The notes beneath the pieces were generated by a model. The model ran no database searches and was not told the DNA's origin. It saw only the letters and a list, made by a program, of their open reading frames with translations. Shown one piece after another: positions 13,823 through 31,378 of a stretch of DNA of 37,602 bases. The DNA is from a virus: IMG/VR virus record IMGVR_UViG_3300048930_000206, positions 1 through 37,602 of that record. One strand, 5' to 3'. The translations under genes were made by a program, and so were the position numbers. How positions within the stretch are numbered: the stretch's first letter is position 1; each line of letters begins with the position of its first letter.

Positions 13823-14605
13823 TCATCCAACCTTGGAGGCCAAATCCTTATTCTGATCGTGCCAGCTCATCCCGTTCCCGGCCTTGTTATAGGCGAGGAA
13901 ACCGCGCTGATCCGCCGGGAGGCCCTTGAACCATTCGGCATAGGTATCCAGCCCATCGGCGGCGCGCTGGCGGCCTTCATTCACCAACGTGCGCTCATCG
14001 CCGGTGAGGGCGTCATAGGGATCGGCCGGGGTGCCACCGCCCGCCTGGCCATCATCATCCTCCGCGAGGCCGCGAGCGATGAGGTTGAGCATGGCCATGG
14101 CGGCATAGCGTTTGCCGTAGCTCACCGATGAGCCCACCGCTTGCACGTCATTCCGTCCCTTGCCCACATCGGCCGGGAGCACGATGGCGGAGCCGCGCTC
14201 CTCCCATCCGTGGCCGGAGAGGATCGGTGCCACGGAGACGCGCGGCCCTTCGTGGCCAATGTCGAAATTGAGCACCAAGCCATGGCGCATGAGCACCGGC
14301 GTGATGATCGGTTGCATCCGCTCCCACGTGGCATAGGCATTGCCAGTGTGGGTGTTTTTCCCATCCTTGCCGATGTGCGGCATCTCCGAAATCGCGCGGA
14401 CCTTGGCAGCGATGAAGGCGGCGCGCGCATCGCGATCCTCCAGCTTGAACATGAGTTCGGCCATGGCCACGGCCTTCTCCGGTTGCACGTCCGGATTGGT
14501 GAGGGCCTCGCGGAGAAGCTGGAGGCGCTGGTGGACCGCGATCCCGCGCTCCTCTTGTGGAGCGAGCTCGCGGCCGGGCTCGCCGGTGGTGATTTCTTGG
14601 GACAT
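13823..14605 (-). CDS. erf: ERF-family single-strand annealing recombinase
   Basis: 260 aa from the ATG at 14605, which has AAGGAGCTGAAA just upstream; a 10-residue longer reading from 14635 would include the ribosome site itself. Typical ERF features are present: KAVAMAELMFKLEDRDARAAFIAA, the NTHTGNAYATWERMQPIITPVLMRHGLVLNF core, and the VGSSVSYGKRYAAMAMLNL motif with an Asp-rich AEDDDGQ after it. ERF proteins anneal complementary strands in phage recombination. The upstream exonuclease genes in the same operon would generate the single-stranded substrate. Confidence 0.9.
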   Translation of the reverse strand: MSQEITTGEPGRELAPQEERGIAVHQRLQLLREALTNPDVQPEKAVAMAELMFKLEDRDARAAFIAAKVRAISEMPHIGKDGKNTHTGNAYATWERMQPIITPVLMRHGLVLNFDIGHEGPRVSVAPILSGHGWEERGSAIVLPADVGKGRNDVQAVGSSVSYGKRYAAMAMLNLIARGLAEDDDGQAGGGTPADPYDALTGDERTLVNEGRQRAADGLDTYAEWFKGLPADQRGFLAYNKAGNGMSWHDQNKDLASKVG

Positions 14606-14624
14606 TTTCAGCTCCTTTTGTGGA

Positions 14625-14654
14625 GCTCCCACCATATCAAACTATGATGGGAGC
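14625..14654 (-). promoter_or_regulatory. Hairpin and weak operator-like site upstream of erf
   Basis: GCTCCCACCAT and ATGATGGGAGC form an 11-bp stem with one mismatch and an 8-base loop. Overlapping this on the minus strand, CCCATCATAGTTTG (14651-14638) partly matches the CACAW-N4-WTGTG palindrome seen at other early promoters. It stands 11 bases before GCTCC, the same spacing as at the 17974 and 23581 sites. GCTCC can also pair with GGAGC of the erf ribosome site. Confidence 0.45.
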
Positions 14655-14672
14655 GCCATGAAATATTGCGGC

Positions 14673-17423: not shown

Positions 17424-17668
17424 CACCGATCTCCCAACGGTTGCGCGAAGTGCTCGCCAATCGGGCGGCCGTTGATCGTGATTGGCGCATCCGCCGGGGC
17501 GATGATCAGCCGATAGGTGGTAGGATCGCCCGCAAGCTGCACTCGCGCTTGGTGGACGCCATAGGAGCCATTGCACTGGTGATTATCCACCGTGATCCGC
17601 TCCGTGGAGGGCGGCTCCTTGCGAGCCCAATCCCTGATCTTGGAGACGATGAAGCCCGGATAAATCAT
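17423..17668 (-). CDS. Hypothetical protein
   Basis: 81 aa (MIYPGFIVSKIRDWARKEPPSTERITVDNHQCNGSYGVHQARVQLAGDPTTYRLIIAPADAPITINGRPIGEHFAQPLGDR), probably beta-rich. It overlaps the genes on both sides by one to four bases, so it is translated within the leftward early operon. No family recognised. Confidence 0.7.
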   Translation of the reverse strand: MIYPGFIVSKIRDWARKEPPSTERITVDNHQCNGSYGVHQARVQLAGDPTTYRLIIAPADAPITINGRPIGEHFAQPLGDR

Positions 17669-17937
17669 GCCGCCTCCTCCAGCTCGCGCGCCACATCAAA
17701 CATGGCATCGCCCGGCCCCCATAGGTGCTCACAATTCTTGGGGATCGCGATGAAGGGGCGGCCGCCCTCTGCCTTGGCGCGGAGCCGGGCAAAGGTGCGC
17801 CAATAGAGGCGCTTGCGCTCGCTGGAGTAGCGGCACACGGCCACGAAACCTTGCGGATCATAGAAGCCGTGAGGCGTGCGGATCGGCGGCATAACGCGAT
17901 CCACAATGCGCGCCGCGCGCTGGTGATATGTGCTCAT
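17665..17937 (-). CDS. First gene of leftward early operon, hypothetical
   Basis: 90 aa (MSTYHQRAARIVDRVMPPIRTPHGFYDPQGFVAVCRYSSERKRLYWRTFARLRAKAEGGRPFIAIPKNCEHLWGPGDAMFDVARELEEAA), basic in its middle. The ribosome site GGGAGCTGAAACCC precedes ATG 17937. It is the promoter-proximal gene of the recombination operon and faces the small regulator at 18081 across a 143-bp control region. The fold is not recognised. First genes of early operons are often host-takeover proteins, which is only context. Confidence 0.7.
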   Translation of the reverse strand: MSTYHQRAARIVDRVMPPIRTPHGFYDPQGFVAVCRYSSERKRLYWRTFARLRAKAEGGRPFIAIPKNCEHLWGPGDAMFDVARELEEAA

Positions 17938-18080
17938 TGGGTTTCAGCTCCCTATGTGGAGCACGATCCTTGCCACATCATTATGTGTGAATCAAGCGCC
18001 AATGAGATAAAAAAGAGGGATTGCCGAAACATCATTATGTGTGGCAATGATGCGCCTCCAGTCACAAGCGGAGCCACATC
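17938..18080. promoter_or_regulatory. Divergent early control region with two palindromic operators
   Basis: Two near-identical 14-bp palindromes lie 54 bp apart: CACATCATTATGTG (17974-17987) and AACATCATTATGTG (18028-18041). Each sits between a -35-like TTG element and a -10-like element of a promoter reading away from the centre. Leftward: TTGATT at 17995-17990, then CAAGGA after the site. Rightward: TTGCCG at 18021-18026, then CAATGA at 18045-18050. The leftward leader contains GCTCC-N6-GGAGC, which can cover the ribosome site of the 17937 gene. The small XRE-type protein encoded at 18081 is the obvious candidate ligand. Confidence 0.7.
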
Positions 18081-18284
18081 ATGGATGACAAGAAGCCGCG
18101 CCACCCGGATGAGGTGCGCGATGCGATCACACGGAGCGCGATCACAAAGACGGAGCTCGCGCGCCGCGCGGGCGTGCACGCCAACACCCTGGCCAATGTC
18201 GAAAGCGAGGAGTGGAGCCCGCGTTGGAAAACGCTGGAGGCCCTTTGCAAGGCCGCCGATGCGATCCGGGCGGAGCGCGCTTGA
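18081..18284 (+). CDS. Small XRE/Cro-type helix-turn-helix regulator
   Basis: 67 aa (MDDKKPRHPDEVRDAITRSAITKTELARRAGVHANTLANVESEEWSPRWKTLEALCKAADAIRAERA). The helix-turn-helix is at about 22-45 (TKTELARRAGVHANTLANVE), followed by the typical TLEALCKAADAI helix. There is no cleavage or oligomerisation domain, so it is Cro-sized rather than CI-sized. It is the first rightward early gene, divergent from the recombination operon and preceded by paired palindromes. It likely binds these and represses its own and other early promoters. A GCGGAG ribosome site lies upstream. Confidence 0.85.
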   Translation: MDDKKPRHPDEVRDAITRSAITKTELARRAGVHANTLANVESEEWSPRWKTLEALCKAADAIRAERA

Positions 18285-19806: not shown

Positions 19807-19841
19807 GCTGAATTTCCGGTGGATGTGTGGGTGCAAAGAGA

Positions 19842-22738: not shown

Positions 22739-22935
22739 TGGCCGCGCCGCGATGGAGGGAAAACACCGGGCGCATCCCCCGCTCGCTGGATCGCAAGGGG
22801 GCGCGCGTCTATGTGCGCCTCCGTAACGGATCGGAGCCCAAGGAGACGTGGGCCGCGCAAACCACGCGATGGACCCTCACCACCGGCCCATCATCCGCCT
22901 TTGACGTGATCGCCTATCGTGCGGAGGCGGAGTGA
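22735..22935 (+). CDS. Hypothetical protein
   Basis: 66 aa from GTG 22735 or 65 from ATG 22738 (MAAPRWRENTGRIPRSLDRKGARVYVRLRNGSEPKETWAAQTTRWTLTTGPSSAFDVIAYRAEAE). It is probably a small beta protein. It overlaps its neighbours by a few bases and is co-translated. Function unknown. Confidence 0.65.
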   Translation: MMAAPRWRENTGRIPRSLDRKGARVYVRLRNGSEPKETWAAQTTRWTLTTGPSSAFDVIAYRAEAE

Positions 22936-23144
22936 TGTGGGAGTGGATCGCGGCCGCATGGGTGGCGCTATCGTTTCCCCTTGGTGTGCTCACCGGCAAA
23001 TGGATCAAAGGGCGGTGGCGCTCAACACCGGCGAGTGGAAGGCTTGATCGCACAAAAGATTGTGGCATAGTGCGGCCGCCAATCACAAGCAAAGGAGCGA
23101 AACATGGCAACGCAAGCGGAGCGCCTGGAGGCGCTGGAAACTGA
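22932..23144 (+). CDS. Small membrane protein
   Basis: 70 aa from GTG 22932 or 69 from ATG 22935. An N-terminal hydrophobic helix (WEWIAAAWVALSFPLGVLTG) is followed by a basic tail. Its 3' half runs over the promoter at 23044-23071 and into the next gene, so the last ~35 residues may be unconstrained. Moderately supported. Confidence 0.5.
   Translation: MMWEWIAAAWVALSFPLGVLTGKWIKGRWRSTPASGRLDRTKDCGIVRPPITSKGAKHGNASGAPGGAGN
23044..23071 (+). promoter_or_regulatory. Early promoter with palindromic operator
   Basis: TTGATC (23044-23049) and CATAGT (23066-23071) flank CACAAAAGATTGTG (23051-23064), a CACAW-N4-WTGTG palindrome. Same architecture as the sites at 17974, 18028, 23581 and 30362. It drives the 23104 gene. 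Confidence 0.65.
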
Positions 23145-23517
23145 AATCGGCGGCATCAAGGCGATGCTGGAGAAAGTGATGCCCTACCTTGAGGGCGCGG
23201 CCAATGGCGAGCCGGTCAAGGTGACGGTGGAGGGCATGGACCTCCTTATCAGCCGGGTGGATGATTTGGAAAAGCTCCTCAAGGATGGCGAGACGATGGA
23301 TGAGCTCCGCTCGCTGGTGGCCAAGGCCGCTCCTCTTTCCGATTTCGAGACGCTCACGGAGCGTGTGGATAAGCTGGAGGTTGACGAGATGCCCGGTAGT
23401 GGTGAGCTCATCGCGGCGGAGCTGGTTGAGGGCTATGATCCGCGCGGCGAGGTGCTCAAGGCGTTTCGCCAGATTGAGGCCATCGCCAATCACATCAACG
23501 TCAAGCTCCCGGCGTAA
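23104..23517 (+). CDS. Coiled-coil hypothetical protein
   Basis: 137 aa with AAAGGAGCGAAAC upstream of the ATG. Two heptad-rich segments (MATQAERLEALETEIGGIKAMLEKVMPYLE and ISRVDDLEKLLKDGETMDELRSLVAKA ... LTERVDKLEVDE) predict a coiled coil. It has its own promoter with operator and is followed by an intrinsic terminator, so it forms a single-gene transcription unit. Function unknown. Confidence 0.75.
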   Translation: MATQAERLEALETEIGGIKAMLEKVMPYLEGAANGEPVKVTVEGMDLLISRVDDLEKLLKDGETMDELRSLVAKAAPLSDFETLTERVDKLEVDEMPGSGELIAAELVEGYDPRGEVLKAFRQIEAIANHINVKLPA

Positions 23518-23537
23518 GGCGGCCGCTTCCCGAAAGG

Positions 23538-23567
23538 AGGGCGGGGTTTTCGGGCTCCGCCCTTTTT
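23538..23567 (+). terminator. Intrinsic terminator after 23104 gene
   Basis: AGGGCGGGG (23538-23546) pairs with CTCCGCCCT (23555-23563), including one G-T pair, around an 8-base loop. TTTTT follows directly (23563-23567). Confidence 0.88.
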
Positions 23568-23572
23568 GCGTC

Positions 23573-23622
23573 TTGAGTGGCACATTATCTTGTGATAGCC
23601 CAAGAGCTCCTCAACGGGAGCT
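23573..23622 (+). promoter_or_regulatory. Early promoter, operator and RBS-covering hairpin
   Basis: TTGAGT (23573-23578), operator CACATTATCTTGTG (23581-23594) and -10-like ATAGCC (23595-23600) are followed by AGCTCC (23605-23610). This can pair with GGAGCT (23617-23622), the ribosome site of the 23629 gene. The same arrangement precedes 17937 and 30407. Confidence 0.65.
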
Positions 23623-23628
23623 GAAACG

Positions 23629-23922
23629 ATGATTGAATTTGAGATGACGGTGAGCCAATTGGATAGGCTCTTGAGTGCTTGCCGCCCGGTTGCGATGATA
23701 GCCCTTCAATGCGGCGCACCTCGCTCCCCCCAAGAAAACGCAAATGAGGCGTGGAAGGCGCTGGCAAAGGAGCTCGGCTTTGTGTGGGATACGGCAAAGC
23801 CCTCGCCAAAGGGCGAGAGGTTTTTCACCGCGATCCCCGCGCCTCGCCAATGCCCTCACGGTGAGCCGCTGGCCGGTGGGTGCCGGGATTGCGACCGCGA
23901 GCACCGCGAGGCCACGGCATGA
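23629..23922 (+). CDS. Small Cys-rich hypothetical protein
   Basis: 97 aa (MIEFEMTVSQLDRLLSACRPVAMIALQCGAPRSPQENANEAWKALAKELGFVWDTAKPSPKGERFFTAIPAPRQCPHGEPLAGGCRDCDREHREATA). The C-terminus has CPHG...CRDC, a possible zinc site. The ribosome site GGGAGCTGAAACG may be masked by an upstream complementary GCTCC. First gene of a short early cluster leading to the tRNA. Related-looking short phage proteins exist but their function is unknown to me. Confidence 0.75.
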   Translation: MIEFEMTVSQLDRLLSACRPVAMIALQCGAPRSPQENANEAWKALAKELGFVWDTAKPSPKGERFFTAIPAPRQCPHGEPLAGGCRDCDREHREATA

Positions 23923-24473: not shown

Positions 24474-24547
24474 TCGCGCGTCGTCTAATGGCAGGATACC
24501 GGATTTTGGCTCCGGAAATGGAGGTTCGACCCCTCCCGCGCGATCCA
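24474..24547 (+). tRNA. tRNA-Gln (anticodon UUG)
   Basis: 74 nt with encoded CCA. Acceptor TCGCGCG (24474-24480) pairs with CGCGCGA (24537-24543). The anticodon stem is CCGGA/TCCGG with 7-base loop TTTTGGC, giving anticodon TTG. The T arm is GGAGG-TTCGACC-CCTCC, and CCA is at 24545-24547. It reads CAA, the glutamine codon this phage favours (CAA clearly outnumbers CAG in the tape measure gene), whereas the IS passenger and many GC-rich hosts favour CAG. It may supply the codon the host reads poorly. Confidence 0.95.
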
Positions 24548-25050: not shown

Positions 25051-26330
25051 TGAGCGGCTATGGTTATGGCTACGGCTACAAATATTGGCGCGCACGCCGA
25101 TCCGCGCCGGTAAAGTCATGGCAGATCATTGACGCATATAACGACACCGGCTTTGCCGCGCAGAGCTCGAACGCAAGTAGCGTTCAGGTTGTCACCCGCA
25201 AGCGCGACATCCCGAACATTGATCTTGAAGCGGTCCGTTCGCTGGAGCAGACTTTCTTTGTCGGGGCGAGCAGCGGCGGCGTGGACACCACCATCACGAA
25301 CGTGGTCAACATCGAGCATAAGCTGTCCAACGCCTCGACGCAGCTTGCCATTTCCCCGTCGCCGGTCGCGGTCCCTGCCTTCGAGGGTGCTTACCAGATA
25401 CTTGAATATACCGGCGCTATCCCGGCAGGCACGACGCTCTATCTCGACAAGAAGGCGACCGTCCCCACGTCTGGCCAGAACACCGGGCCGCAGACGCTCA
25501 TCTATTCGTCGCAGGGTGCGGCATCGGCAGTCGGGCGCAAAGCTGGCTCGACGGTGACGTTCGATACAACGGGCCTGTCAACCGGCACCGGCTCCCTGCT
25601 CTGCCCGATCACGATAGGCTATGGCGTCCACCTGTACCCGACATTCGGGGCCATCGGTGACAGCATCATATCGTCAAACGGCGAGACCTACGATGGTGAT
25701 GGCGGCGCGGTAGGTGTCGAGGGCCGCACCCGTCAGGGTGGCGCGTTGATGCGGCGGGCAATCTATCTCGCCCAAGTATCGGCTGGCCGCACTGTTCCCC
25801 TTCGATTGCTCAGCCGTCCGTCCGCCCAGATGACGGGTATGCGCTCATCGTCCGGTGCCGGTGGTGCCAAGCGCCGCGCCAGCTACCCATATTTCAACCA
25901 CCTCATCATTCAGATGGGGACGAACGATCTGGGCAACAGCCGCACCGCTGCGCAGCTAAAGGCAGACATAGAGGCGGAGATTGTTGCCTATCGTGCCGCA
26001 TGGACCGCTGCCAATCCTACGCTGCCCTGCTATGTCATCGTCTGCACGATCCTGCCGCGCGTCGGTAGCCACGCCAGCACCACAAGGCTGGCCTATGCGG
26101 GTGAGATTGAGACTCACAATTATAACGTCCGTCATGGCCTCATCGTCGGCAGCGACGGCTATCTGGACCCCAATCTGGCAGTTCGTTCGGTCGCCGACGA
26201 AACGCTATGGCTGGATAGCGCCGATGAGGCCGATGGCCTTCATCCTACACCGGCAGGCTACGCCAAGATAGCCGCCGAGGTGGCTCCATATCTGGCCCTC
26301 AACAGCTCCCCTTGGCACACGTTCCTGTGA
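25050..26330 (+). CDS. SGNH/GDSL hydrolase-domain protein, probably acquired
   Basis: 426 aa. A Tyr/Gly N-terminus (SGYGYGYGYKYWRARR) is followed by a beta-rich part (30-190) and an SGNH hydrolase domain. Block I is FGAIGDSIISS (Ser205), a block-III-like motif is IIQMGTNDLG (Asn292), and the last block is DEADGLHPTPAGY (Asp395/His398). Such enzymes deacetylate or cleave esters on cell-surface glycans and are common in virion proteins. Asp codons are about 10 GAC to 8 GAT, versus 3 to 24 in the neighbouring terminase, so it was likely acquired recently. It lies far from the other fibre genes. Confidence 0.78.
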   Translation: MSGYGYGYGYKYWRARRSAPVKSWQIIDAYNDTGFAAQSSNASSVQVVTRKRDIPNIDLEAVRSLEQTFFVGASSGGVDTTITNVVNIEHKLSNASTQLAISPSPVAVPAFEGAYQILEYTGAIPAGTTLYLDKKATVPTSGQNTGPQTLIYSSQGAASAVGRKAGSTVTFDTTGLSTGTGSLLCPITIGYGVHLYPTFGAIGDSIISSNGETYDGDGGAVGVEGRTRQGGALMRRAIYLAQVSAGRTVPLRLLSRPSAQMTGMRSSSGAGGAKRRASYPYFNHLIIQMGTNDLGNSRTAAQLKADIEAEIVAYRAAWTAANPTLPCYVIVCTILPRVGSHASTTRLAYAGEIETHNYNVRHGLIVGSDGYLDPNLAVRSVADETLWLDSADEADGLHPTPAGYAKIAAEVAPYLALNSSPWHTFL

Positions 26331-30353: not shown

Positions 30354-30401
30354 TTGCTACCAACATTATTTTGTGACAATAAGGCTCCAAGCAAAGGAGC
30401 T
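30354..30401 (+). promoter_or_regulatory. Promoter-operator inside the head operon
   Basis: TTGCTA (30354-30359), operator AACATTATTTTGTG (30362-30375) and -10-like CAATAA (30377-30382) match the early-control cassette of 17974 and 23581. GCTCC (30384-30388) can pair with GGAGC of the ribosome site of the 30407 gene. This is the only such site among the late genes. Confidence 0.65.
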
Positions 30402-30406
30402 GACCA

Positions 30407-30619: not shown

Positions 30620-30643
30620 ATCTCAACAAAGGGAGCTGACCCA

Positions 30644-31378
30644 ATGACCTATCCTTACACCCTTTCGCTCGCTGGCGTTCGCGCGCTCAAGCCCTGTGAT
30701 CCTGCAATGGAGCGCCTCGCGGACGTTCTGCCCAAGCGCGGCAAGATCGACGCGGCCAAAGCCCGCGCGCTCGGGTGCACCTATGATGATATTATCTGGA
30801 GCGCCTCCGTTATTGCGATGGATGATGAGAGCCTCGCCAAGCGGCTAACTGGCTATCTGAACGACAACGCAAAGCGCGTGCTCCACATTTTCGAGGAAGC
30901 GGCACCGAATGATGATCGGGTGCGCAAGTGCATTGAGGCCACTGATAATTGGCTTGCTGGTCTGATCACGGAGCAAGAATGGAAAGTGGCCGCGAGGGCC
31001 TCGTGGGACGCGAGGACCGCGTGGGCCGCGAGGGATGCGTGGGCCGCGAGGGATGCGTGGGCCGCGAGGGATGCGTGGGCCGCGAGGACCGCGTGGGCCG
31101 CGTGGGCCGCGAGGGATGCGTGGGCCGCGTGGGCCGCGAGGGATGCGTGGGCCGCGAGGACCGCGAGGGATGCGTGGGCCGCGAGGACCGCGAGGGATGC
31201 GTGGGCCGCGAGGGCCGCGAGGGCCGCGTGGGCCGCGAGGACCGCGAGGGATGCGTGGGCCGCGAGGGCCTCGTGGGACGCTGAATTTCATGCTTGGCAG
31301 TTTGATCGCCTTGTCTACTGGCTTTGTGAGGCGGCTATTCCGCGTGCGCGCGCAACCGCTATCCGGAGGTGCCGGTGA
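30644..31378 (+). CDS. Imm5-like protein with expanded Ala-Trp-Arg repeat
   Basis: 244 aa from ATG 30644 (GGGAGCTGACCCA upstream). The N-terminal ~105 residues (LKPCDPAMERLADVL ... GYLNDNAKRVLHIFEEAAPNDDRVRKCIEATDNWLAGLITEQEWKVAARA) match the layout of 'putative immunity protein' (Imm5-like) sequences. These typically run 'AxxVLPIFEKxxPxDxRPRxAIEAxxxWLxG' and then an alanine-rich helix. That helix is here a repeat of AARDAW and AART units (about residues 115-213), encoded by tandem DNA repeats. The C-terminus (EFHAWQFDRLVYWLCEAAIPRARA) resumes non-repeat sequence. Function is unknown. Toxin immunity or an anti-host role is only suggested by the family name. Confidence 0.7.
   Translation: MTYPYTLSLAGVRALKPCDPAMERLADVLPKRGKIDAAKARALGCTYDDIIWSASVIAMDDESLAKRLTGYLNDNAKRVLHIFEEAAPNDDRVRKCIEATDNWLAGLITEQEWKVAARASWDARTAWAARDAWAARDAWAARDAWAARTAWAAWAARDAWAAWAARDAWAARTARDAWAARTARDAWAARAARAAWAARTARDAWAARASWDAEFHAWQFDRLVYWLCEAAIPRARATAIRRCR
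30988..31281 (+). repeat. Tandem coding repeat bounded by 24-bp direct repeats
   Basis: Nine-base modules GCGAGGRYY and GCGTGGGCC are concatenated. The 18-mer GCGAGGGATGCGTGGGCC occurs eight times. Identical 24-bp direct repeats lie at 30988-31011 and 31258-31281, offset by exactly 270 bp (90 codons). Slippage or recombination would therefore stay in frame. Confidence 0.92.

Follow-up and report, generated by a model that had tools for sequence, protein, structure and literature searches.

Among the described systems closest to the locus presented here, phage 434, with its Cro/CI-type regulation, has operators of 14 bp, and the operators of phiC31 and of phage 16-3 were also considered as comparisons. 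The controller proteins (C proteins) of restriction-modification systems are small helix-turn-helix (HTH) proteins that act as activators or repressors. Sites dispersed over a phage genome are described in Cluster A mycobacteriophages, in which the stoperators of phage L5 are asymmetric, number up to about 30 per genome and lie mostly away from promoters (PMC6550527). In Cluster K mycobacteriophages, the ESAS consist of imperfect inverted repeats of 17 bp whose spacer varies, and these papers name no binder (PMC3203893, PMC12699233).

The window, i.e., the whole stretch of viral DNA analyzed here (37,602 nucleotides, IMG/VR record IMGVR_UViG_3300048930_000206), found no nucleotide match among cultured phages. 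Its two ends are neighbours, by synteny, in the related contig G013, and the window is therefore nearly a whole genome. The five 14-bp palindromes announced by the original prediction, with the consensus CACAW-N4-WTGTG, were all found in place, and a decayed sixth copy was added to them:

17974..17987, minus strand: operator site 1, CACATAATGATGTG on the minus strand, 21.2 bits, in the spacer of the leftward promoter
18028..18041, plus strand: operator site 2, AACATCATTATGTG, TTG at 18021-18023, within the XRE gene's own promoter
23051..23064, plus strand: operator site 3, CACAAAAGATTGTG, TTG at 23044-23046
23581..23594, plus strand: operator site 4, CACATTATCTTGTG, TTG at 23573-23575
30362..30375, plus strand: operator site 5, AACATTATTTTGTG, TTG at 30354-30356, lying in an accessory slot flanked by head morphogenesis and protease genes
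19814..19827, plus strand: decayed sixth site, TTCCGGTGGATGTG

Intact counterparts of the decayed site occur at the equivalent position in three related loci, L005 (150), L002 (6325) and L001 (2705). The number of palindromes was far above chance: the pattern MACAWNNNNWTGTG had 8 strand-matches (5 places) in the window against 0.24 expected in shuffles, none of which reached 8. When the window was scored with a matrix drawn from the sites of related phage contigs alone, its own sites being excluded, the top five positions were the five sites, with 17.5-21.2 bits, while the fifth-best score did not exceed 11.5 in any of 60 dinucleotide shuffles. The next position in the window reached only 9.9 bits and, because of this gap, the matrix scan that had been proposed as a check revealed no comparable match in coding DNA, let alone many equally good ones. 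The only other exact CACA-N6-TGTG in the window, at 26316, has a GC-rich core and scored 8.9 bits.

The five sites share a promoter-like layout. A TTG starts 7 or 8 bases 5' of the site in all five cases, as predicted (chance about 4% per strand), and an ATG start codon follows each site 31-43 nt downstream. For site 1, this geometry fits the minus strand only, with the TTG (17995-17993) at -8 and the start codon at 17937, 36 nt downstream; on the plus strand, a TTG lies only 4 bases before the site. The -10-like hexamers placed by the original prediction 1-3 bases after each site proved to be weak. Instead, the bases following the site recurrently read [G/A]CA..., usually GCA or ACA, which makes a poor -10 element when judged against E. 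coli, and no promoter was found when 17900-18120 and 22900-23700 were scanned strictly for sigma-70. Hence, we infer the promoters from their conserved layout. Several cassettes run on into a short 5' hairpin of the GCTCC-loop-GGAGC type, which contains the Shine-Dalgarno sequence, has the leader consensus GGGAGCTGA and ends in GCTGA a few bases 5' of the ATG:

17947..17962, minus strand: leader hairpin of site 1, GCTCC-ACATAG-GGAGC, Shine-Dalgarno in the 3' arm, before the ATG at 17937, -9.6 kcal/mol
23605..23622, plus strand: leader hairpin of site 4, AGCTCC-TCAACG-GGAGCT, -10.6 kcal/mol
30383..30401, plus strand: leader hairpin of site 5, -9.0 kcal/mol

Besides, a leader motif, GGAGCTGA, lies a few bases before start codons at 17944-17951, 14608-14615, 23617-23624, 30396-30403 and 30632-30639, often in a hairpin. 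It also precedes genes that have no operator, and is similar to start-associated sequences of Cluster K mycobacteriophages.

The genes that follow the sites, together with the candidate binder encoded behind site 2, are as follows:

17665..17937, minus strand: first gene of the leftward operon (site 1), 90 aa, no family, with an ortholog carrying the same site in G002
18081..18284, plus strand: XRE/HTH protein, candidate binder, 67 aa, Pfam HTH_31 (4.5e-08)
23104..23517, plus strand: gene downstream of site 3, 137 aa, no family
23629..23922, plus strand: accessory gene downstream of site 4, 97 aa
30407..30619, plus strand: accessory gene downstream of site 5, 70 aa

The leftward operon continues downstream of the 90-aa gene with exonuclease and Erf genes. 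Since site 5 sits in the head-gene cluster, the term "early" that had been applied to these promoters is too broad. Downstream of the 70-aa gene, positions 30644-31378 encode a 244-aa protein with WAARDAW-type tandem repeats and no family, and a tRNA-Gln (TTG) gene lies at 24474-24547.

A weaker version of the palindrome had also been proposed before erf (14651-14638). This site was rejected as an operator, as CACA..TGTG is not conserved in the relative G002, with which the window shares an inverted repeat there instead (GCTCCCA..TGGGAGC in the erf leader, window 14590-14660, minus strand; GCGCTCACC..GGGTGAGCGC at the equivalent place in G002). The arms of this repeat differ between the two phages yet still pair, and it is possible that the repeat forms a separate RNA or DNA element.

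The 67-aa protein matches HTH_31/HTH_26 in Pfam, and its predicted model (mean pLDDT 84) has an XRE fold with a long C-terminal helix. Its Foldseek neighbours are generic small XRE regulators with C proteins at the top, none of them at E 0.001. Significant sequence matches were found neither among solved structures nor among cultured phages, and a first scan of genome contigs found no relative. As in Cro-type systems, a small HTH protein has operators at divergent early promoters, one of which is its own. An integrase, an opposing CI-type repressor or a lysogeny module was not found among the about 38 window proteins scanned. Because a nearly whole genome thus holds no integrase or CI-type gene, the XRE protein seems to serve as a Cro-type limiter of expression and not as a lysogeny repressor, as far as gene content can indicate. 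A plasmid-like temperate state of the phage may nevertheless exist.

Related phage contigs were then compared. Three were obtained by a search with the XRE protein and more by terminase and Erf searches, and G013 was added by scanning 2.9 million viral contigs for site plus leader at the DNA level. Although picked by its DNA cassette alone, G013 has a gene for the XRE protein (E 1.6e-27), and here too a site occupies the divergent region between the XRE gene and the leftward genes. The succession of a TTG at -7/-8, the site, the hairpin/Shine-Dalgarno leader and a start codon 31-43 nt on recurs in six related contigs. In total, about 16 sites with a common geometry were collected from the window and these contigs (five XRE sequences, seven contigs), and several of the comparisons between them involve orthologous sites and are thus not independent. 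All five contigs bearing the XRE gene (window, G001, G002, G003 and G013) have sites, located at this gene in the window, G003 and G013 and beside it in G002. Conversely, the cassette is absent from large or related contigs lacking the XRE gene, with the exception of short fragments that do not reach its position; thus G009, whose Erf is 57% identical, has neither XRE gene nor sites. Within 3.15 Mb of fetched loci, including 80 loci from alphaproteobacterial genomes, the whole cassette was limited to this phage clade. The promoter geometry was missing at most of 60 pattern matches in viral contigs, and two contigs retrieved by the cassette pattern, G010 and G012, were set aside as chance or another system since they have no XRE gene and no TTG at -7/-8.

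Site 3 is kept before an orthologous gene in G001, G002 and G013. Where the window has sites 4 and 5, the small genes behind the cassette in relatives are unrelated: a 58-aa gene behind the site 4 cassette in G006/L009, and other genes in exchange for the 70-aa gene of site 5 in G001, G005 and G006. With unrelated genes following it at these positions, the promoter-operator-leader cassette acts like a module and may be a plug-in unit for accessory genes.

Among cellular proteins, the XRE protein is closest to the HTH at the N-terminus of a riboflavin enzyme, the chromosomal XRE-RibB-RibA (HTH-RibBA) of Sphingomonadales. In profile searches, 254 of 399 Sphingomonadales genomes gave this HTH-RibBA-type N-terminus as the top cellular match, and no such match was found in two other orders (0/81 and 0/80 genomes, i.e., 0/161). 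The matched host proteins are mostly about 420-440 aa long, and all four of those submitted to Pfam contain RibB and RibA (PF00926, E about 1e-83; PF00925). Phage XRE and host HTH were aligned by hhalign at 98.9% (E 1.4e-17), and among 36,418 open frames of the fetched loci, the profiles of both matched these two families only (E 0.01). Their common signature is L-A-R-x-A-x-[LVI]-H-x-N-[TS]-L followed by W-[NS]-P, with H-x-N-[TS]-L as the core of the recognition helix. The phage gene stops after 67 codons without fused RibB/RibA domains, and its relatives are of similar length. Judged by homology, the phage protein is therefore a stand-alone member of the HTH-RibBA subfamily of HTH domains; one reading is that it derived from the host module. 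From terminase and HTH homology only, the hosts of the phage are probably sphingomonad bacteria.

The host gene also shares the operator. The sequence ATCACATTnnAATGTGAT lies upstream of the HTH-RibBA gene, mostly 12-16 nt before the ATG and often with a TTG at -8. In 19 of 19 host loci chosen by protein alone (a further protein-selected locus, L280, was left out owing to its uncertain start codon), the top score of the phage-only matrix in the 3-kb locus fell within the 100 bp preceding the gene, with 12.7-21.5 bits. Hence, a CACAW-N4-WTGTG operator at the regulator's own promoter is found in the host (19/19) as in the phage. In 199 genomes, the TTG-spaced site was counted 48 times, against about 19 for a reversed-pattern control, and at least 16 of the 48 stand directly before HTH-RibBA by coordinates, with three more recognized by reading the loci. 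Reciprocally, a matrix from host sites only ranked 17974, 23581 and 18028 first in the phage window, the erf position 14638 at a weak sixth place (7.7 bits), 30362 eighth and 23051 outside the top nine. The phage and host specificities are thus related and not identical, because the host matrix scores sites 3 and 5 low. Host sites have conserved AT flanks (ATCACAT..ATGTGAT) that are missing at the phage sites. An FMN riboswitch was not found at the 19 loci. No paper on HTH-RibBA was found in the literature searched, which does not prove its absence from the literature, and the combination of an HTH fused to RibBA with a promoter palindrome looks like an undescribed autoregulation of riboflavin synthesis. 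Several loci (among L268-L287) have an extra half-site, AATGTGAT, upstream. Separately, a second host site, situated about 11 kb away from HTH-RibBA in L308, L309 and L310 (G062, G126 and G149), is part of a longer conserved palindrome, TTGCA..CACAA..TTGTGCAA, which precedes a 155-aa gene and probably belongs to a different regulator.

Taken together, these comparisons make it likely that the XRE protein is an autoregulated repressor acting in promoter spacers at the five operators of one phage regulon. A putative dimer of the 67-aa protein would bind CACAW-N4-WTGTG. As the 14-bp site would take up most of the distance from the -35-like TTG to the -10-like element, dimer and RNA polymerase would be mutually exclusive. 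The protein would repress its own rightward operon through site 2, the divergent recombination operon through site 1 and three accessory-gene promoters through sites 3-5. Such repression would be Cro-type and self-limiting; we infer repression rather than activation, as well as its timing. The small regulon envisaged by the original prediction, in which a Cro-sized regulator acts in the absence of a CI-type repressor, is supported by the co-occurrence of XRE gene and sites, the scan of about 38 proteins and the palindrome of the host homologue.

The most serious competitor of this repressor is the host protein. HTH-RibBA could be the main binder, or both could compete; the phage would then have put its promoters under a riboflavin-linked regulator of the host, with its own XRE protein as a truncated competitor. 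The 14-bp core of the host ribBA operators is indeed identical, with a TTG often at -8 too, and the scores of host sites under the phage matrix (12.7-21.5 bits) overlap those of the phage's own sites (17.5-21.2 bits). However, the AT flanks occur only at host sites, two of the five phage sites are poor by the host matrix, the sites track the phage XRE gene and the host assignment of the phage is itself only probable, so that we regard this alternative as unlikely. It is still less likely that the XRE protein activates the five promoters or acts on them as a dual regulator. The weak -10 elements resemble those of activated promoters, and C proteins are the top structural neighbours, though with no match at E 0.001; against this, all five promoters have the site within the spacer, where a bound protein normally blocks the polymerase. 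One site per promoter and a site before the gene's own start also fit autorepression.

Two further explanations dispense with the phage protein altogether. The palindrome could be a host regulon site acquired with the promoters, and the motif does occur in host genomes upstream of one gene; yet the 48 TTG-spaced sites in 199 genomes (control about 19), of which at least 16 precede HTH-RibBA, do not amount to a host-wide regulon, and contigs lacking the XRE gene also lack the cassette, save for the short fragments mentioned above. We therefore hold this to be very improbable. Chance palindromes, which a short motif and AT-rich promoter spacers might favour, have a negligible probability, since the observed count was not reached in shuffles and the geometry is conserved in six related contigs. 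The autoregulated repressor is thus retained as the preferred explanation.

A broader idea, which we put forward tentatively, is that homologous DNA-binding modules give phage and host a common operator code, the host's module being autoregulating and carried on RibBA, the phage's standing alone. If this were true, host ribBA might be silenced by the phage protein during infection, or the host enzyme-regulator might make phage promoters respond to flavin status. In either case, the phage and host flavin synthesis might be linked at the level of regulation. The binder of dispersed phage operators is normally unknown, whereas here a candidate is named from an independent cellular family having the same operator. 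Sphingomonads are thereby indicated as hosts of this uncultivated phage group. Control of riboflavin genes by an enzyme-fused HTH, with a promoter palindrome and no FMN riboswitch at the 19 loci, would itself be apparently undescribed, as far as the literature searched shows.

Compared with known systems, the phage regulon resembles the L5 repressor and its stoperators in having one phage regulator for many dispersed sites (PMC6550527), but its sites are palindromic, few and all placed in promoter-like cassettes, unlike the L5 type. With the Cluster K SAS/ESAS, it has in common a start-codon repeat and an upstream inverted repeat before genes of different families (PMC3203893, PMC12699233). 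The Cluster K signature of GGGATAGGAGCCC with 17-bp inverted repeats is however replaced here by the leader consensus given above and a 14-bp palindrome, to which are added a candidate binder and a promoter geometry. As in the lambdoid Cro/CI system of phage 434, a small HTH protein is paired with a short palindromic operator over divergent promoters and over its own gene; unlike there, each promoter has one spacer site, the sites are spread over several kilobases, a CI-type partner and a tripartite operator were not found, and the HTH subfamily is allied to HTH-RibBA. Compared with the host HTH-RibBA, the phage protein has no enzyme domains and five sites instead of one, and its operators have no AT flanks and vary more at bases five and six, while the HTH subfamily, the 14-bp operator core and, in many loci, the TTG at -8 are those of the host XRE-RibB-RibA system.
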